From Clostridiales bacterium (GTDB lineage Bacteria > Bacillota > Clostridia > Christensenellales > Pumilibacteraceae), in assembly GCA_031255775.1 (NCBI GenBank), contig JAIRRW010000137.1:1-32781 (forward strand): a stretch of 32,781 nt of DNA, written 5' to 3'. Shown here piece by piece: positions 1,237 to 11,375 of this stretch. The translations under genes and the position numbers were made by a program. Position 1 is the first letter of the stretch. Each line of letters starts with the position of its first letter. Under the pieces are notes generated by a model that did not search any database, had not been told where the DNA came from, and saw only the letters and a list, made by a program, of their open reading frames with translations.

Positions 1237-1821
1237 GACGGAGATCAGTTCGGGTACGGCGTTTGGGAGAACCAGCTTATAAAAGATTTGCAGCTTGGAC
1301 GCGCCCATGGACTGCATCAAAAACACCTTGTTTTTGTCACAGGCCAAAAAACTTTGCAGCATACTGATGACGGTCACGACGATGCAGATCAAAAAGGTCA
1401 TCATGATAATGGACTTCATGCCGGCGCCCACCCAAATGATGATGATGGGCCCAAGCGCGATCTTGGGCAGGCTGTTTAGGACGACGATATAGGGGTCCAG
1501 CACGCGCCGCAGGGTATCCGACCACCAGAGCGCGACCGCGGCCAAAAACCCCGCGATGGTGGATATGACAAAGCCCAAAATACATTCGAGCAGGGTGATC
1601 CCGATATGCGGCATAAAATCCTGTCGAAACAGCTGTCCCAGCTTGATAAGGATTCGGGACGGGGAGCTGACAAAAAACGCGTCGACCAGCCTGACCTGCG
1701 TCAAGAACTCCCAGGCGCCCAAAAAGACGGCCAAAACGGCGACCTGCAAGCAGAGCACCTTGATTTTGCCGTTCCGCTTTTTCCTGAGATAGAGCGCGCG
1801 CGGCGTGCATGGCTTTTTCAT
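1012..1821 (-). CDS. ABC transporter permease, sulfonate/nitrate/HMP type
   Basis: This is the membrane subunit of an ABC importer of the SsuC/TauC/ThiX type (BPD_transp_1 family). It has about six hydrophobic segments. The cytoplasmic EAA-like loop reads MGASKLQIFYKLVLPNAVPE, the site that docks the ATPase. The ATG at 1821 is chosen over an in-frame start 18 bases upstream because an AAGGAGGT ribosome-binding site sits six bases before it, and because it overlaps the ATPase stop as ATGA (1818-1821), which implies translational coupling. The 3' end lies 225 bp inside the convergent ykvI reading frame. The transported compound cannot be told from sequence; taurine or alkanesulfonates, nitrate and the thiamine pyrimidine are all typical of this group. 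Confidence 0.88.
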   Translation of the reverse strand: MKKPCTPRALYLRKKRNGKIKVLCLQVAVLAVFLGAWEFLTQVRLVDAFFVSSPSRILIKLGQLFRQDFMPHIGITLLECILGFVISTIAGFLAAVALWWSDTLRRVLDPYIVVLNSLPKIALGPIIIIWVGAGMKSIIMMTFLICIVVTVISMLQSFLACDKNKVFLMQSMGASKLQIFYKLVLPNAVPELISVLKINIGLAWVGTIMGEYIMSSAGLGHLIIYGGQVFQIDLVMASIVVLCVLAGLMYFLIARLEKFFRKRRGGSLQ

Positions 1822-2573
1822 GCGCCGACCTCCTTCCAAACCTTGTCAAACCAGCCCGAAAAGGCCGGGTCCTCGCGCCGTTTCAGCGGCGTGGGTCTGT
1901 CAATATCAAGTGTATAGATCCGTTTGACCGTGGCAGGCCGCGCGGACAAAACAACAATGCGGTCGGCCAGGCTCACCGCCTCGGAGATGTCGTGCGTGAC
2001 GAGGAGCGCCGTCTTTTTTTCCTCGCGAATGATGGCGTATACGTCGTCGCATACGCTTAGGCGCGTTTGAAAGTCCAAGGCGGAAAAGGGCTCGTCCAGC
2101 AGCAGGAGTTTGGGACGAAAGGCCAGCGTGCGAATCAGCGCGGCGCGCTGGCGCATACCGCCCGACAGCTGCCGCGGGTGCGCCTTGATAAAGTCGCCCA
2201 GCCCGTATTTTTGCAAGAGCTGTTTGGCGTATTCGATGTTTTCGGGCGTGTTTTTCTTTTGAACCTCTAGGCCTAAGGTCACATTTTGCAGGATGGTTCG
2301 CCAGGCAAACAGGTTGTCGCTTTGCAGCATATAGCCGACCTCGCCGCTGGTGCCCGTGATTTCCTTGCCGCCCAGGCGTATGCTGCCGGCCGTGGGTTTT
2401 AGCAGCCCCGCGGCCAGCGAGAGGACGGTGGTTTTTCCGCAGCCCGAGGGGCCGACGATCGCCACAAATTCGCCCTCCTTGACCCGCAGGCTGATGTCCC
2501 TTAGCGCCTCGGTTTCATGCGCCGCCGACTGATAGGTCAGTCCGACGTTTTCGATGGTGAGTATGTCGTCCAT
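1818..2573 (-). CDS. ABC transporter ATPase, SsuB/TauB type
   Basis: This is the ATP-hydrolysing subunit that powers the adjacent permease. All nucleotide-binding motifs are present, numbered from the chosen start: Walker A GPSGCGKTT (about 41-49), Q-loop YMLQSDN (about 81-87), signature LSGGMRQR (about 136-143), Walker B LLLLDEPFSALD (about 156-167) and the switch histidine in VTHD (about 194). The ATG at 2573 is preferred over the frame's upstream start at 2633, because the family begins just before the first beta strand (DILTIENVGL), AGAGGA precedes this ATG, and the upstream part would cross a 12-bp hairpin. It is the second gene of the importer operon. Confidence 0.9.
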   Translation of the reverse strand: MDDILTIENVGLTYQSAAHETEALRDISLRVKEGEFVAIVGPSGCGKTTVLSLAAGLLKPTAGSIRLGGKEITGTSGEVGYMLQSDNLFAWRTILQNVTLGLEVQKKNTPENIEYAKQLLQKYGLGDFIKAHPRQLSGGMRQRAALIRTLAFRPKLLLLDEPFSALDFQTRLSVCDDVYAIIREEKKTALLVTHDISEAVSLADRIVVLSARPATVKRIYTLDIDRPTPLKRREDPAFSGWFDKVWKEVGA

Positions 2574-2594: not shown

Positions 2595-2632
2595 TGTCCG
2601 CGCCGCGGGGATAAGGGTTGGCGGCGCGGACA
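2595..2632 (-). other. 12-bp perfect stem-loop upstream of the ABC ATPase
   Basis: The arms TGTCCGCGCCGC (2595-2606) and its exact complement (2621-2632) flank a 14-base loop, between the substrate-binding-protein gene and the ATPase start. No U-tract follows in the direction of transcription, so it is not a standard terminator. Stem-loops at this place in importer operons often stabilise the upstream message so that the binding protein exceeds the ATPase; that role is inferred here. Confidence 0.6.
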
Positions 2633-2638
2633 CCTGTC

Positions 2639-2774
2639 TTGTCCGGAGTGACAGATAGTGGGTTGAAACGGGCTACGTGCATCGCGGCAACTCGGTTACG
2701 TATTAGAAATACGCGCCCTCGTTGCCCCGCCGCCTGTTGCCCGTCTGAACCTCACTCTTTGTCACTCCGGACAA
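2639..2774. repeat. MITE-like long imperfect palindrome in the ABC operon
   Basis: Perfect 15-bp terminal inverted repeats TTGTCCGGAGTGACA (2639-2653) and TGTCACTCCGGACAA (2760-2774) bound a 136-bp segment. The pairing continues imperfectly inward (GGTTGAAACGGGC against GCCCGTCTGAACC). Near the middle is a small hairpin, CGTATT AGA AATACG. There is no coding content. The motif TTTGTCCGC occurs on both sides (about 2593 and 2782). Terminal inverted repeats, small size and lack of genes fit a non-autonomous mobile element or a dispersed palindromic repeat. In RNA it would fold into a long hairpin between the binding-protein and ATPase cistrons. Confidence 0.6.
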
Positions 2775-2799
2775 CCCATGATTTGTCCGCTCCCTGCCG

Positions 2800-3816
2800 T
2801 TAAGCCGTTTTCCGTTCGGCGATCACCGCGTTCACGTAGGTGTTGTCCACCGCCTTGGTGTAGGGCACGTTCTTGCTCAGCTCGCCCGCGTTCATCATGA
2901 CGGTTTGGAGCATCAGATAGGATTCCTCCGCAAAATAGGGCGTTTCGCACCAAGCGTCGATCTCGCCGTAACGAATCACCGAGCTTTTGAGCATATCGAG
3001 CTCAATCCCGGTAAAAAAGGGCTGCATGGCCTTGGCGACGTCCAACGGGTCGGCGTTTACGGTAAAGTCATAGCCCTTGATGATCGCCCGAATAAAGCTC
3101 TTGATGACCGCCTCGTTGCTTTCGATATAGCTTTTGCTTGCCGAAAACGAGGTGTAGGGGACAAGGCCGCTTGCCTCGCCGACGGCCGCCACGACATAGC
3201 CCTTGCCGTTTTTTTCCACCTCGGAGGCGGTCGGCTCAAACAGGGTCGTATAGTCGATATTCGGCTGTGACACAAACGTCGGCCCCATCATGGCAAAGTC
3301 CACGCTCTGATCAAAGTTCATGTCGGTGATCTCCATGCCGTTGCTGTTGACGACGTACTGGAGCGTCATCGACGGCATACCGCCCTTGCGTCCGGCCAAA
3401 ATATGCTTACCCCTTAAATCCGTCCACTTAAAGGTATCCTTCTCGTCCTTTTTCGAGACGATAAACGACCCGTCGCGCTTAGTCAGCTGGGCGAAAATGA
3501 TGGGATAATCCAGCTTGCCCTCCGCCTGCGCGTACACCGTCGCCTCGGGACCAAGGAGGCCGATGTCGGCGGATTTAGAGGATAGGGCGGTCATGACCTT
3601 GTCCGCGCCCTGGCCGGTGACAAGCTCGATGTATAGCCCCTCCTCCTCAAAATAGCCCTCGGTGACGGCCGCGTACATGGGCGCGTAAAAGACGCTGCGC
3701 GCCACCTCGTTTAGGCGAACCAATGTGAGGCCGGGCGGCACCTTGTCGCAGCCGGTCATCAGCAATCCGGCAAACAGCATCGCGCCGGACAAGAGCAGTG
3801 TGACCAATTTTTTCAT
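2800..3816 (-). CDS. ABC substrate-binding lipoprotein (NMT1/SsuA-like)
   Basis: This is the extracytoplasmic binding lipoprotein of the importer. A lysine start and hydrophobic stretch end in the lipobox LMTGC, with the lipid-modified cysteine at residue 23. The mature part has the NMT1/SsuA/TauA pattern: VFYAPMYAAVTEGYFEEEGL near the start, then a GADKVM segment and an SADIGLLGPE segment. The length of 338 residues is usual. AGGAGG lies 11 bases before the ATG. It is the first gene of the operon and is transcribed away from valS. The SsuA/ThiY-like family can bind sulfonates, nitrate, or the thiamine precursor HMP; I saw no thiamine riboswitch in the leader, which weakly argues against a thiamine role. 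The ligand is unknown. Confidence 0.88.
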   Translation of the reverse strand: MKKLVTLLLSGAMLFAGLLMTGCDKVPPGLTLVRLNEVARSVFYAPMYAAVTEGYFEEEGLYIELVTGQGADKVMTALSSKSADIGLLGPEATVYAQAEGKLDYPIIFAQLTKRDGSFIVSKKDEKDTFKWTDLRGKHILAGRKGGMPSMTLQYVVNSNGMEITDMNFDQSVDFAMMGPTFVSQPNIDYTTLFEPTASEVEKNGKGYVVAAVGEASGLVPYTSFSASKSYIESNEAVIKSFIRAIIKGYDFTVNADPLDVAKAMQPFFTGIELDMLKSSVIRYGEIDAWCETPYFAEESYLMLQTVMMNAGELSKNVPYTKAVDNTYVNAVIAERKTA

Positions 3817-6700: not shown

Positions 6701-7759
6701 ATGGCGCAGGCAGGCAATTTTTACATAGGGGCAAACGACGAGCACGGATTGAATCCGCCGACGGGGGGCAAGCGTACGCCTGTCATGCCCTATATCGATC
6801 GCAGTTTTTACGAAAACGAATACAACCGAAAGGCAAAGCAATATTTTATGATCGCGCTCTCCCGCTGCGGCTTTAACGTGTTTGACGTCAAGCCCGAGTG
6901 GCAGGACGTCTCGATCAATACGCGCGTTTCCCGCGTCAACGCCCGCAATTTGAGCCTAGTGACGACCTTTGCCTACAACGCGTACGGGAGCGGCACGGCC
7001 TTTAACAACGTCAACGGGTACCTGACCTTTTATTCCGACGAAAACAGCTACGCCCAGCGGAACCGCCTGTTGGCGTACGACGTCTCGGCCGGCCTGTCCG
7101 AAACGCTGCCCACCAATAATTTGGGGATCGGGACGCTGACGGGGATCGGGATGCTGCGGACGGTGCGCTGTCCGGCCGTCATTATCGAGGGCGGCTTTAT
7201 GACCAATTTTTACGAAGCCAAGCTGATGATGGACCCCGATTTTCAAAAGGCCGCGGGCGAGGGCGCCTGCATGGGCGTGTGCGACTTTTTGGACGTCGCC
7301 TACGTCCCCCAATCGGCAAAAAACCCGACCTTACGGCAGGGCGCGCGCGGAAAATCCGTCCAATATATGCAATATCTATTGCGCCTTCACGATTTTGAGG
7401 TATCGCCCGACGGCGTATTCGGCCCGGGCACGGCCGAGGCGGTCAGGGCGTTCCAGACCTTTAACGGCCTGACGGTCGACGGCATTGTCGGCAAAAACAC
7501 CTGGTCGGCGTTCCTTATCGATCATACCCCCATGCCCACGCTAAGACGAGGGGCAAGCGGCGCCGCCGTCGCCTATCTCCAGCAAAAGCTCCTCTCCAAG
7601 CTCTATAACGCGGGGGCGGTCGACGGCGTATTCGGCGGCAATACCGAACGCGCGGTTTTAGAATTTCAGACCGAAAACTGCCTGAGCGTGGACGGTATCG
7701 TCGGCAAAAATACCTGGGGCAAGCTCATGCCCATGGGCGGGGGACGGCCAATGCCGTAA
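6701..7759 (+). CDS. Amidase_3-like protein with two peptidoglycan-binding domains
   Basis: Resembles zinc N-acetylmuramoyl-L-alanine amidases (Amidase_3) at residues 1-200, followed by two PG_binding_1 repeats (about 208-270 and 279-345, each ending DGIVGKNTW). Conserved points are H15 in DEHG followed by GKRTP, E38 in YENEYNR, and the catalytic glutamate E163 in PAVIIEGGFMTN. At the second metal histidine, normally SIHANA, the protein reads TFAYNAYG, so alanine 91 replaces histidine. It may be inactive, use another ligand, or represent a divergent subfamily. There is no signal peptide, which suits a spore-associated, holin-dependent or cytoplasmic protein. Its ribosome-binding site lies in the valS terminator stem, and a possible promoter (CTGACA, 18 bases, CATATA; 6647-6676) would start RNA near 6683 and free it. 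Confidence 0.75.
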   Translation: MAQAGNFYIGANDEHGLNPPTGGKRTPVMPYIDRSFYENEYNRKAKQYFMIALSRCGFNVFDVKPEWQDVSINTRVSRVNARNLSLVTTFAYNAYGSGTAFNNVNGYLTFYSDENSYAQRNRLLAYDVSAGLSETLPTNNLGIGTLTGIGMLRTVRCPAVIIEGGFMTNFYEAKLMMDPDFQKAAGEGACMGVCDFLDVAYVPQSAKNPTLRQGARGKSVQYMQYLLRLHDFEVSPDGVFGPGTAEAVRAFQTFNGLTVDGIVGKNTWSAFLIDHTPMPTLRRGASGAAVAYLQQKLLSKLYNAGAVDGVFGGNTERAVLEFQTENCLSVDGIVGKNTWGKLMPMGGGRPMP

Positions 7760-7826
7760 AAAAGCAGTCGGTCGGCTTTAAAAAGCAACCGATCGGCTTT
7801 AAGAAACAGCCGACCGGCTTTAAAAA
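7757..7826. terminator. Triple 22-bp repeat, probable bidirectional terminator
   Basis: Three imperfect tandem copies of a 22-base unit (AAGCAGTCGGTCGGCTTTAA and two variants) fill the gap between the convergent amidase and GNAT genes. CGGTCGGCT in the first copy can pair with AGCCGACCG in the third, and the AAAA/TTTT tracts on both sides would serve termination in both directions. The GNAT stop codon lies in the last unit. Confidence 0.6.
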
Positions 7827-9106: not shown

Positions 9107-9123
9107 AAAACGCTCCTATCCTG

Positions 9124-11137: not shown

Positions 11138-11181
11138 TCATAACCCGTTTTATCAAAAAACAAAACAAGACAAAGCAAGCG

Positions 11182-11366
11182 AATAATGTACTCCATTCGT
11201 TTGAAGAATGACAGTCGCAGGGTATTAGCCGCTGCGCCCAGCCGTCCCTAAGCCGCCCCCGTCCGGGCAGGCGATCGAAACCGCTTCGGCGATGATGCCC
11301 TTTCCGTTTTCCGCCCCGACGGGACAGCGGTAAAAAACGTACTGATGCTCAACGCTCCTCATTATT
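11182..11366 (-). ncRNA. Lysine riboswitch (L-box)
   Basis: This 185-base leader element senses lysine. The closing helix P1 pairs AATAATG (11360-11366) with CATTATT (11182-11188). Inside are the L-box landmarks in order: GAGGAGCG just after P1, an AGTA, the block GGAAAGGGC with GCCGAAG, a GGACGGCTGGGC region, and the distal part CTGTCATTC ... GAATGGAGTAC. It lies between a near-consensus promoter and a terminator, upstream of asd-dapA-dapB, the classical target set. The operon should be on when lysine is low. Decoded by hand from conserved blocks; a covariance-model score was not possible. Confidence 0.9.
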
Positions 11367-11375
11367 ACTAAAAGT

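Follow-up and report, generated by a model that had tools for sequence, protein, structure and literature searches.

The window, which is the whole stretch of DNA analysed (32,781 nucleotides of a Clostridiales bacterium of the family Pumilibacteraceae), carries on its minus strand an ABC importer operon with genes for an SsuA/TauA-like binding protein, an ATPase and a permease. None of the three importer genes reaches a curated cut-off that would assign a specific substrate. Between the genes for the binding protein and the ATPase lies a spacer with a palindromic element whose reading direction is antisense to the operon; co-transcription of the two is likely from the gene order. The features of this region are listed below.

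1818..2573, minus strand: ABC transporter ATPase gene, stop codon included, downstream of the element.
2595..2632, no strand assigned: 12-bp stem lying apart from the element, on the side of the ATPase start, and not belonging to the element family.
2644..2794, plus strand: the 151-bp element, of outer subtype A; its left terminus, CGGAGTGACA, stands at 2644, and its right terminus, GCTCCC, closes at 2794.
2644..2667, plus strand: outer left arm of subtype A (CGGAGTGACAGATAGTGGGTTGAA); 53 pattern matches in the same genome at up to three mismatches, none for the reversed control.
2656..2757, plus strand: hairpin region under the covariance models, with stems of variable sequence, several conserved loops and covariation; 108.9 bits with model R1, 93.1 bits with model R2.
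2679..2691, plus strand: left arm of the inner stem, GCATCGCGGCAAC, which differs from copy to copy (19 distinct left arms in 22 subtype-I copies).
2699..2713, plus strand: apical hairpin CGTATTAGAAATACG, the centre named in the original prediction; common to the inner subtype-I copies.
2721..2733, plus strand: right arm of the inner stem, GTTGCCCCGCCGC, nearly invariant (exact in 20 of 22 subtype-I copies).
2775..2794, plus strand: 3′ tail of the element (CCCATGATTTGTCCGCTCCC), outside the border first proposed; with three mismatches allowed, the right-end pattern occurs 42 times in the genome and never in the control.
2800..3816, minus strand: substrate-binding protein gene, SsuA/TauA-like, below curated cut-offs, upstream of the element.

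The separate 12-bp stem at 2595-2632 is real in the fold, as had been proposed, and its sequence was found once among the loci fetched from the same genome. Elsewhere in the window there is a lysine riboswitch (11178-11370, minus strand, 78 bits), and at 7759-7826 three tandem 26-nt units with a spacing of 21 nt lie directly 3′ of an open reading frame. Full or partial copies of a second palindromic family, resembling GGTCGTGTTGACACGCGTGTAATC... and already noticed in the original prediction, were seen in the window at 9119, 15415, 27758, 28321, 29324 and 32453; at another locus (L031) a sequence of this type adjoins a subtype-A element.

The original prediction described a gene-free palindrome of 136 bp, folding back on itself between perfect 15-bp terminal arms. 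These arms are present, TTGTCCGGAGTGACA at 2639-2653 having its exact complement at 2760-2774, and a repeat search of the window returned an arm pair of 22 nt with 91% complementarity. Taken alone, the 15-mer is not rare: it has 2 matches at up to three mismatches, and as many were found in 14 of 100 shuffles. The fold is the stronger evidence for the palindrome. For the plus strand at 2580-2790 the folding energy is -106 kcal/mol, where the shuffles average -70.8 (z -7.15); for the transcribed strand at 2560-2802 it is -117.3 (z -8.61). Neither value was reached in 200 shuffles. No gene lies in the palindrome.

The borders 2639-2774 are not those of the element itself. The ten best other copies, 93-97% identical, match the 136-bp query only from base 5-9 to base 125-132 (one weaker blastn row, C130, reaches query base 136), and the family termini place the element at about 2644-2794, with the true 3′ end 20 bp beyond the border first given. 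From these match limits and the family termini, the outermost five bases of each arm seem to be local. The right-end pattern matches the window copy at 2776-2793 with 3 mismatches; a few of the 42 places with this pattern are chance matches in genes or short remnants.

Further copies were expected from the prediction and are plentiful. A blastn search with the 136 bp gave 58 rows in the genome of the window, fragments and second-strand matches of the palindrome included, while covariance model R1 gave 103 rows, second-strand matches again included, among which 59 distinct assembled places score at least 67 bits; related genomes have matches as well. The genome is itself a metagenome-assembled genome (MAG), 89.8% complete. 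The aligned copies share a core with the order CGGGCTACG, stem, loop, apical hairpin, loop, stem and CTGTTGCCCG. The outer arms around this core are of at least four kinds, and one and the same outer arm can enclose either of two main subtypes of inner stem and apex. The suggestion that the genome holds at least two small palindromic families is a fair one, with several interchangeable outer modules around one core. A branched insert of 60 nt (GGCCGAACCTCTCTGAACTTTGC...GGTTCGGC) is present at one fixed place of the inner stem in 17 of the copies read (among them L320, L321, L330, L333, L337 and L338), and in three loci (L324, L328 and L331) subtype-A arms enclose an unrelated inner hairpin. 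In two copies, L014 and L021, the left and right arms come from different subtypes; these copies may be products of chimeric assembly. Three of 41 left flanks beside elements of this genome are common to two contigs (L010/L329, L328/L330 and L337/L338), and L012 and L015 are also nearly alike, so that some contig ends may be duplicated or chimeric; this touches the two mixed-arm copies too.

The inner stem of subtype I is strongly asymmetric. Its left arm has 19 versions and its right arm 3 in 22 copies, with 41 differences on the left against 4 on the right; 8 of the 41 are the junction base of the inserted domain. The high number of distinct left arms is partly a matter of ascertainment, since the assembler of a MAG crosses repeats only where the copies differ. 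Such ascertainment does not explain the asymmetry between the arms, because it favours distinct copies and not one arm.

Several smaller pieces were seen in the same searches. Sequences of about 34 bp resembling GGAGTGGGCAAATCATGAGTTATTCGGAGTGACA lie between genes at five loci (L351, L353, L354, L355 and L358) and look like right ends left over after loss of the hairpin. Stand-alone apical modules that retain just the inner stem (model positions 29-73) occur at L098 and L100 in genomes G013 and G050. Another spacer repeat, by eye of the type GTCATTGCGAGG...GCAATCTC, stands beside elements at L122 in genome G009.

The secondary structure is conserved through compensating changes. In a MAFFT alignment of 28 copies from the genome of the window, 33 hand-drawn pairs are formed in 95.8% of cases; 19 of the 33 show changes on both sides, the covariation score is reached by none of 500 shuffles, and sliding the partner abolishes it. 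Much of this covariation comes from subtypes that differ at many pairs together. Across 112 copies, mostly from other genera, 30 of the 33 pairs covary, in an alignment that was fitted to the covariance model and therefore leans toward it. The middle loop of these copies has TACG on the left in 102 and CTGTT on the right in 97; the GAT/CTG below it is common (65 and 61 of 112, respectively), and the apical motifs are kept in 90 copies on the left and in 98 on the right. The conserved part of the family is the structured core, not the ends. A riboswitch or another known RNA was rejected, as a search with 4227 Rfam families gave no match over the window element at gathering cut-offs. When 12 loci were searched with E values as high as 1, their elements again remained without a match, the sole hit being a neighbouring 6S RNA. 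That 6S RNA (L079, 1290-1492) directly adjoins one copy of the element.

The ends of the subtype-A copies carry the marks of insertion. Their terminal inverted repeats read CGG[A/C]GTG... and ...C[A/G]C[T/G]CCC, and in 7 of the 14 copies with both termini recognised, 8 or 9 of 9 flanking bases are duplicated, compared with none of 182 cross-locus controls. The window copy, with 4 of 9 bases, lacks a target duplication, as do five others of the 14 (3-5 of 9); one more scores 7 of 9. A generic flank-match test with free ends gave at least 7 matching bases in 35 of 113 non-A copies against 17% of controls, and in 6 of 25 A copies against 6.5% of controls. This excess is modest, and neighbouring repeats may be its cause.

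Empty sites, which the original prediction had proposed to seek in relatives, were found in three clean orthologous cases, with flanks 80-92% identical. L193 and L311 carry the insert directly 3′ of a TAA stop, the empty counterparts being L303 and L316 for L193 and L234 for L311; in L209 it lies 2 nt 3′ of a TAG stop, with L214 as the empty counterpart. The covariance model scored no element at the empty places. The three inserts include about 20-30 extra bases 3′ of the hairpin and show no clear duplication. A further case of presence and absence, L189/L222, has poorly aligned spacers, and a comparison of the two flanks of one gene between G009 and G023 shows the element absent in G023. At the site of the window copy, 11 relatives were fetched of 23 other genomes with a match to the binding protein. 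They have the same gene pair with a spacer of 0-342 nt, and in 10 of the 11 this spacer has no model match at E 0.01. The other (L344, genome G004) has a weak match there (E 0.0015), which leaves room for an insertion at this site in another genome as well.

The distribution among genomes is patchy. At E 0.001 the element has matches in 26 of the 61 genomes searched. The family of the window genome accounts for 23 of these, out of 37 searched, and the rest of the order for 3, out of 24; in some genomes there is one weak match. With model R2, G009 has 78 rows and its congener G023 has none; G019 has 62 rows and G003, again of its genus, none; the match-free G023 and G003 are 90% and 83% complete. 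In a class-wide draw of 291 genomes, with at most 13 candidates scored per genome, three besides the genome of the window had matches at E 1e-6, all weak. Among the 80 stretches listed, of at least 97, the named carriers include Pumilibacter muris CLA-AA-M08 (13 rows with model R2), of a genus that NCBI places in the Pumilibacteraceae, and many uncultured Clostridia; viral contigs gave no stretch with the exact apical pattern.

Taken together, the 8-9 bp duplications within one subtype and the orthologous sites free of the insert indicate an element that is mobile and MITE-like. We consider it probable, at about three chances in four, that the family is a non-coding, non-autonomous mobile DNA element of the MITE-like, nested-palindrome kind. 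Of the class proposed in the original prediction, the likeness to a MITE stands, on the many copies, the duplications of subtype A, the empty sites and the patchiness among congeners; the element is, however, not a plain MITE. Its compensated stems surround conserved loops, with the core conserved and not the ends, its outer and inner palindromes are swapped as modules, and in relatives it has a particular placement behind stop codons.

This placement was assessed with gene calls from a home-made coding score. A left gene was called for 90 of the 96 copies from relatives. Of these 90, 78 are in the sense orientation behind that gene, and 70 of the 78 have the stop codon 0-21 nt before the model start. 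Counted over 152 distinct elements of relatives, 85 have a coding-scored stop at most 24 nt before the model start, in 25 of them at exactly 8 nt. In the genome of the window, subtype A has no such preference: of 26 copies, 10 are sense behind a gene, 13 have the left gene opposed and 3 are without a call. Subtype B is sense behind the gene in 9 of 9 called copies (of 10), and the other copies of this genome in 6 of 9 called (of 10). The 3′ arm, moreover, tends to pair with the end of the preceding gene. In 48 elements whose outer stem is clear, this arm pairs with the stop codon and the two final coding bases more often than shuffled arms do (27 and 28 of 48 against 16.9 and 15.9), and for these two coding bases none of 1000 shuffles comes as high. 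The excess is missing at coding bases -3 to -6, and base -7 is paired in 20 of 48 against 11.9. Target choice, selection and template-switch repair of the palindrome are each compatible with this pairing and placement.

If selection were the cause, the family would be a structured regulatory or stabilising RNA kept at the 3′ ends of genes, its mobility being secondary: a hairpin that starts at the stop codon would limit decay by 3′ exonucleases or set the ratio of neighbouring genes in an operon. The sense placement in relatives, the distance to the stop codon with its peak at exactly 8 nt, and the pairing of the 3′ arm above that of shuffled arms all agree with this. So does the orthologous pair L186/L196, in which the copies are conserved and a change of the stop from TAA to TGA, together with a change of the preceding base, is matched by a change in the 3′ arm. 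Other observations fit it poorly. Subtype A of the present genome, to which the window copy belongs, is without the preference, and copy numbers fall from 78 rows to 0 within one genus. Two orthologous sites hold quite different elements between flanks of about 80-94% identity (L204/L219, 90-94%, where the preceding gene reads as rpmJ by eye; L238/L263, about 80%). The pairing excess is absent from bases -3 to -6 and yet present at -7, and template switching coupled to replication could perfect the arms without selection. On balance we regard a selected RNA as a possible but doubtful account of the family.

Stable stems behind stop codons would also be expected of intrinsic transcription terminators. 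This was rejected for most copies, since a T-rich stretch stands at the place of a U-tract in only 21 of 158 copies, compared with 58 of 790 random places; by eye, moreover, L234 has a separate terminator-like hairpin with a T-run beyond its empty site. Terminators are a very unlikely explanation. Insertion into the loop of a pre-existing terminator hairpin was considered as well, because it would explain the locus-specific outer arms, and found no support: by eye, no such stem is present at the three empty sites. In integrons, attC sites are imperfect palindromes behind each gene, with conserved R and L boxes, and are recognised by an integrase. The anchoring at stop codons, the conserved loop with variable stems and the apparent exchange of modules around a CGGGC stem recall such sites, and one could imagine the copies as sites at which an integron-type system, dispersed over the genome, recombines a folded single strand. 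The copies are, however, dispersed and inserted without a gene, and attC end boxes are not apparent; we consider this reading highly improbable.

The transposase with the same ends envisaged by the prediction was not found; no autonomous element was apparent by eye in the 260-330 nt inward of 22 left-end matches (20 stretches) and 14 right-end matches (14 stretches). Besides complete and truncated elements, these stretches held chance matches, about five short remnants of 34 bp, and different inner hairpins beneath the same outer arm. IS256 was rejected as a source of the 8-9 bp duplication, since a search of 23 genomes gave no match to transposases of this type. Dispersal by a Y1 (RAYT) transposase, as for REP-type palindromes, would suit a small mismatched palindrome that occupies gene spacers in high copy number. 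The Y1 domain (PF01797), however, has no match in two copy-rich genomes, G004 with 71 element rows and G020 with 52, and matches the genome of the window partially at two places; the unit, furthermore, is 100-150 bp and not 20-40, and subtype A makes duplications of 8-9 bp. A REP/RAYT origin is very improbable, and Y1 and IS256, the two transposase families tested, do not explain the element.

Comparison with known repeats sets the family in context. The part of the literature consulted describes the BOX elements of Streptococcus pneumoniae as composite repeats with exchangeable outer modules, boxA and boxC, or boxE and boxF in S. suis (PMC3049150). Going by that description, BOX elements resemble the present family in the exchange of outer modules around inner ones, the folded RNA, the many copies and the clusters of repeats. 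They differ from it in that here the core is common across genera and the outer arms differ, and in its compensated stems round conserved loops and its sense-strand anchoring at stop codons in relatives. Bacterial MITEs such as ERIC/IRU, RUP and Correia/NEMIS are less than 200 bp, non-coding and intergenic, with terminal inverted repeats, target duplications, long stem-loops in transcripts and mostly a 5′-TA-3′ motif at the termini (PMC2229807). The present family shares this general form; in contrast to these MITEs as described there, its outer arms vary more from subtype to subtype than any other part, and the duplications of subtype A are 8-9 bp. REP/BIME sequences with RAYT are alike in being mismatched palindromes that lie in spacers and form mosaics, and are set apart by size, by duplication and by the lack of a Y1 match in the two copy-rich genomes. 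No description of the family was found in the literature searched, most subscription papers lying outside that search, and the family has apparently been undescribed until now.

On the MITE-like reading, the element would be a nested palindrome built of exchangeable outer arms, a middle stem beside the conserved TACG/CTGTT loop, a variable inner stem and a small apical hairpin, with a further 3′ tail of 20-24 nt in subtype A. It would insert as DNA, subtype A making the 8-9 bp duplication observed, and an enzyme supplied in trans would move it. The conserved loop and apical module are most likely read by that enzyme or by a host protein, on an extruded DNA hairpin or on RNA. The window copy would have inserted, in antisense orientation, between the genes for the binding protein and the ATPase; if co-transcribed, it would form a strong hairpin between the cistrons and could protect or attenuate part of the message. 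The original prediction proposed that this hairpin and the separate 12-bp stem may affect the ratio of binding protein to ATPase. The anchoring at stop codons and the compensated stems in relatives exceed what a plain MITE would need. A more specific mechanism, in which the folded hairpin and not the ends would be the signal for mobility, and the enzyme would read the loop and apical module, set the hairpin sense-strand behind stop codons and copy the stop region inverted into the 3′ arm, giving locus-specific self-complementary ends, seems to us rather improbable.

The element is real, mobile and MITE-like, and apparently represents a new family with an unusual conserved structure. It adds a large, unnamed family of structured repeats to a group of Clostridia known, to judge by record titles, mostly from metagenome-assembled genomes. 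Because it breaks the usual MITE pattern of fixed ends and a free interior, both the question of what moves an element conserved in its fold and that of why hairpins of this kind build up at stop codons become testable.
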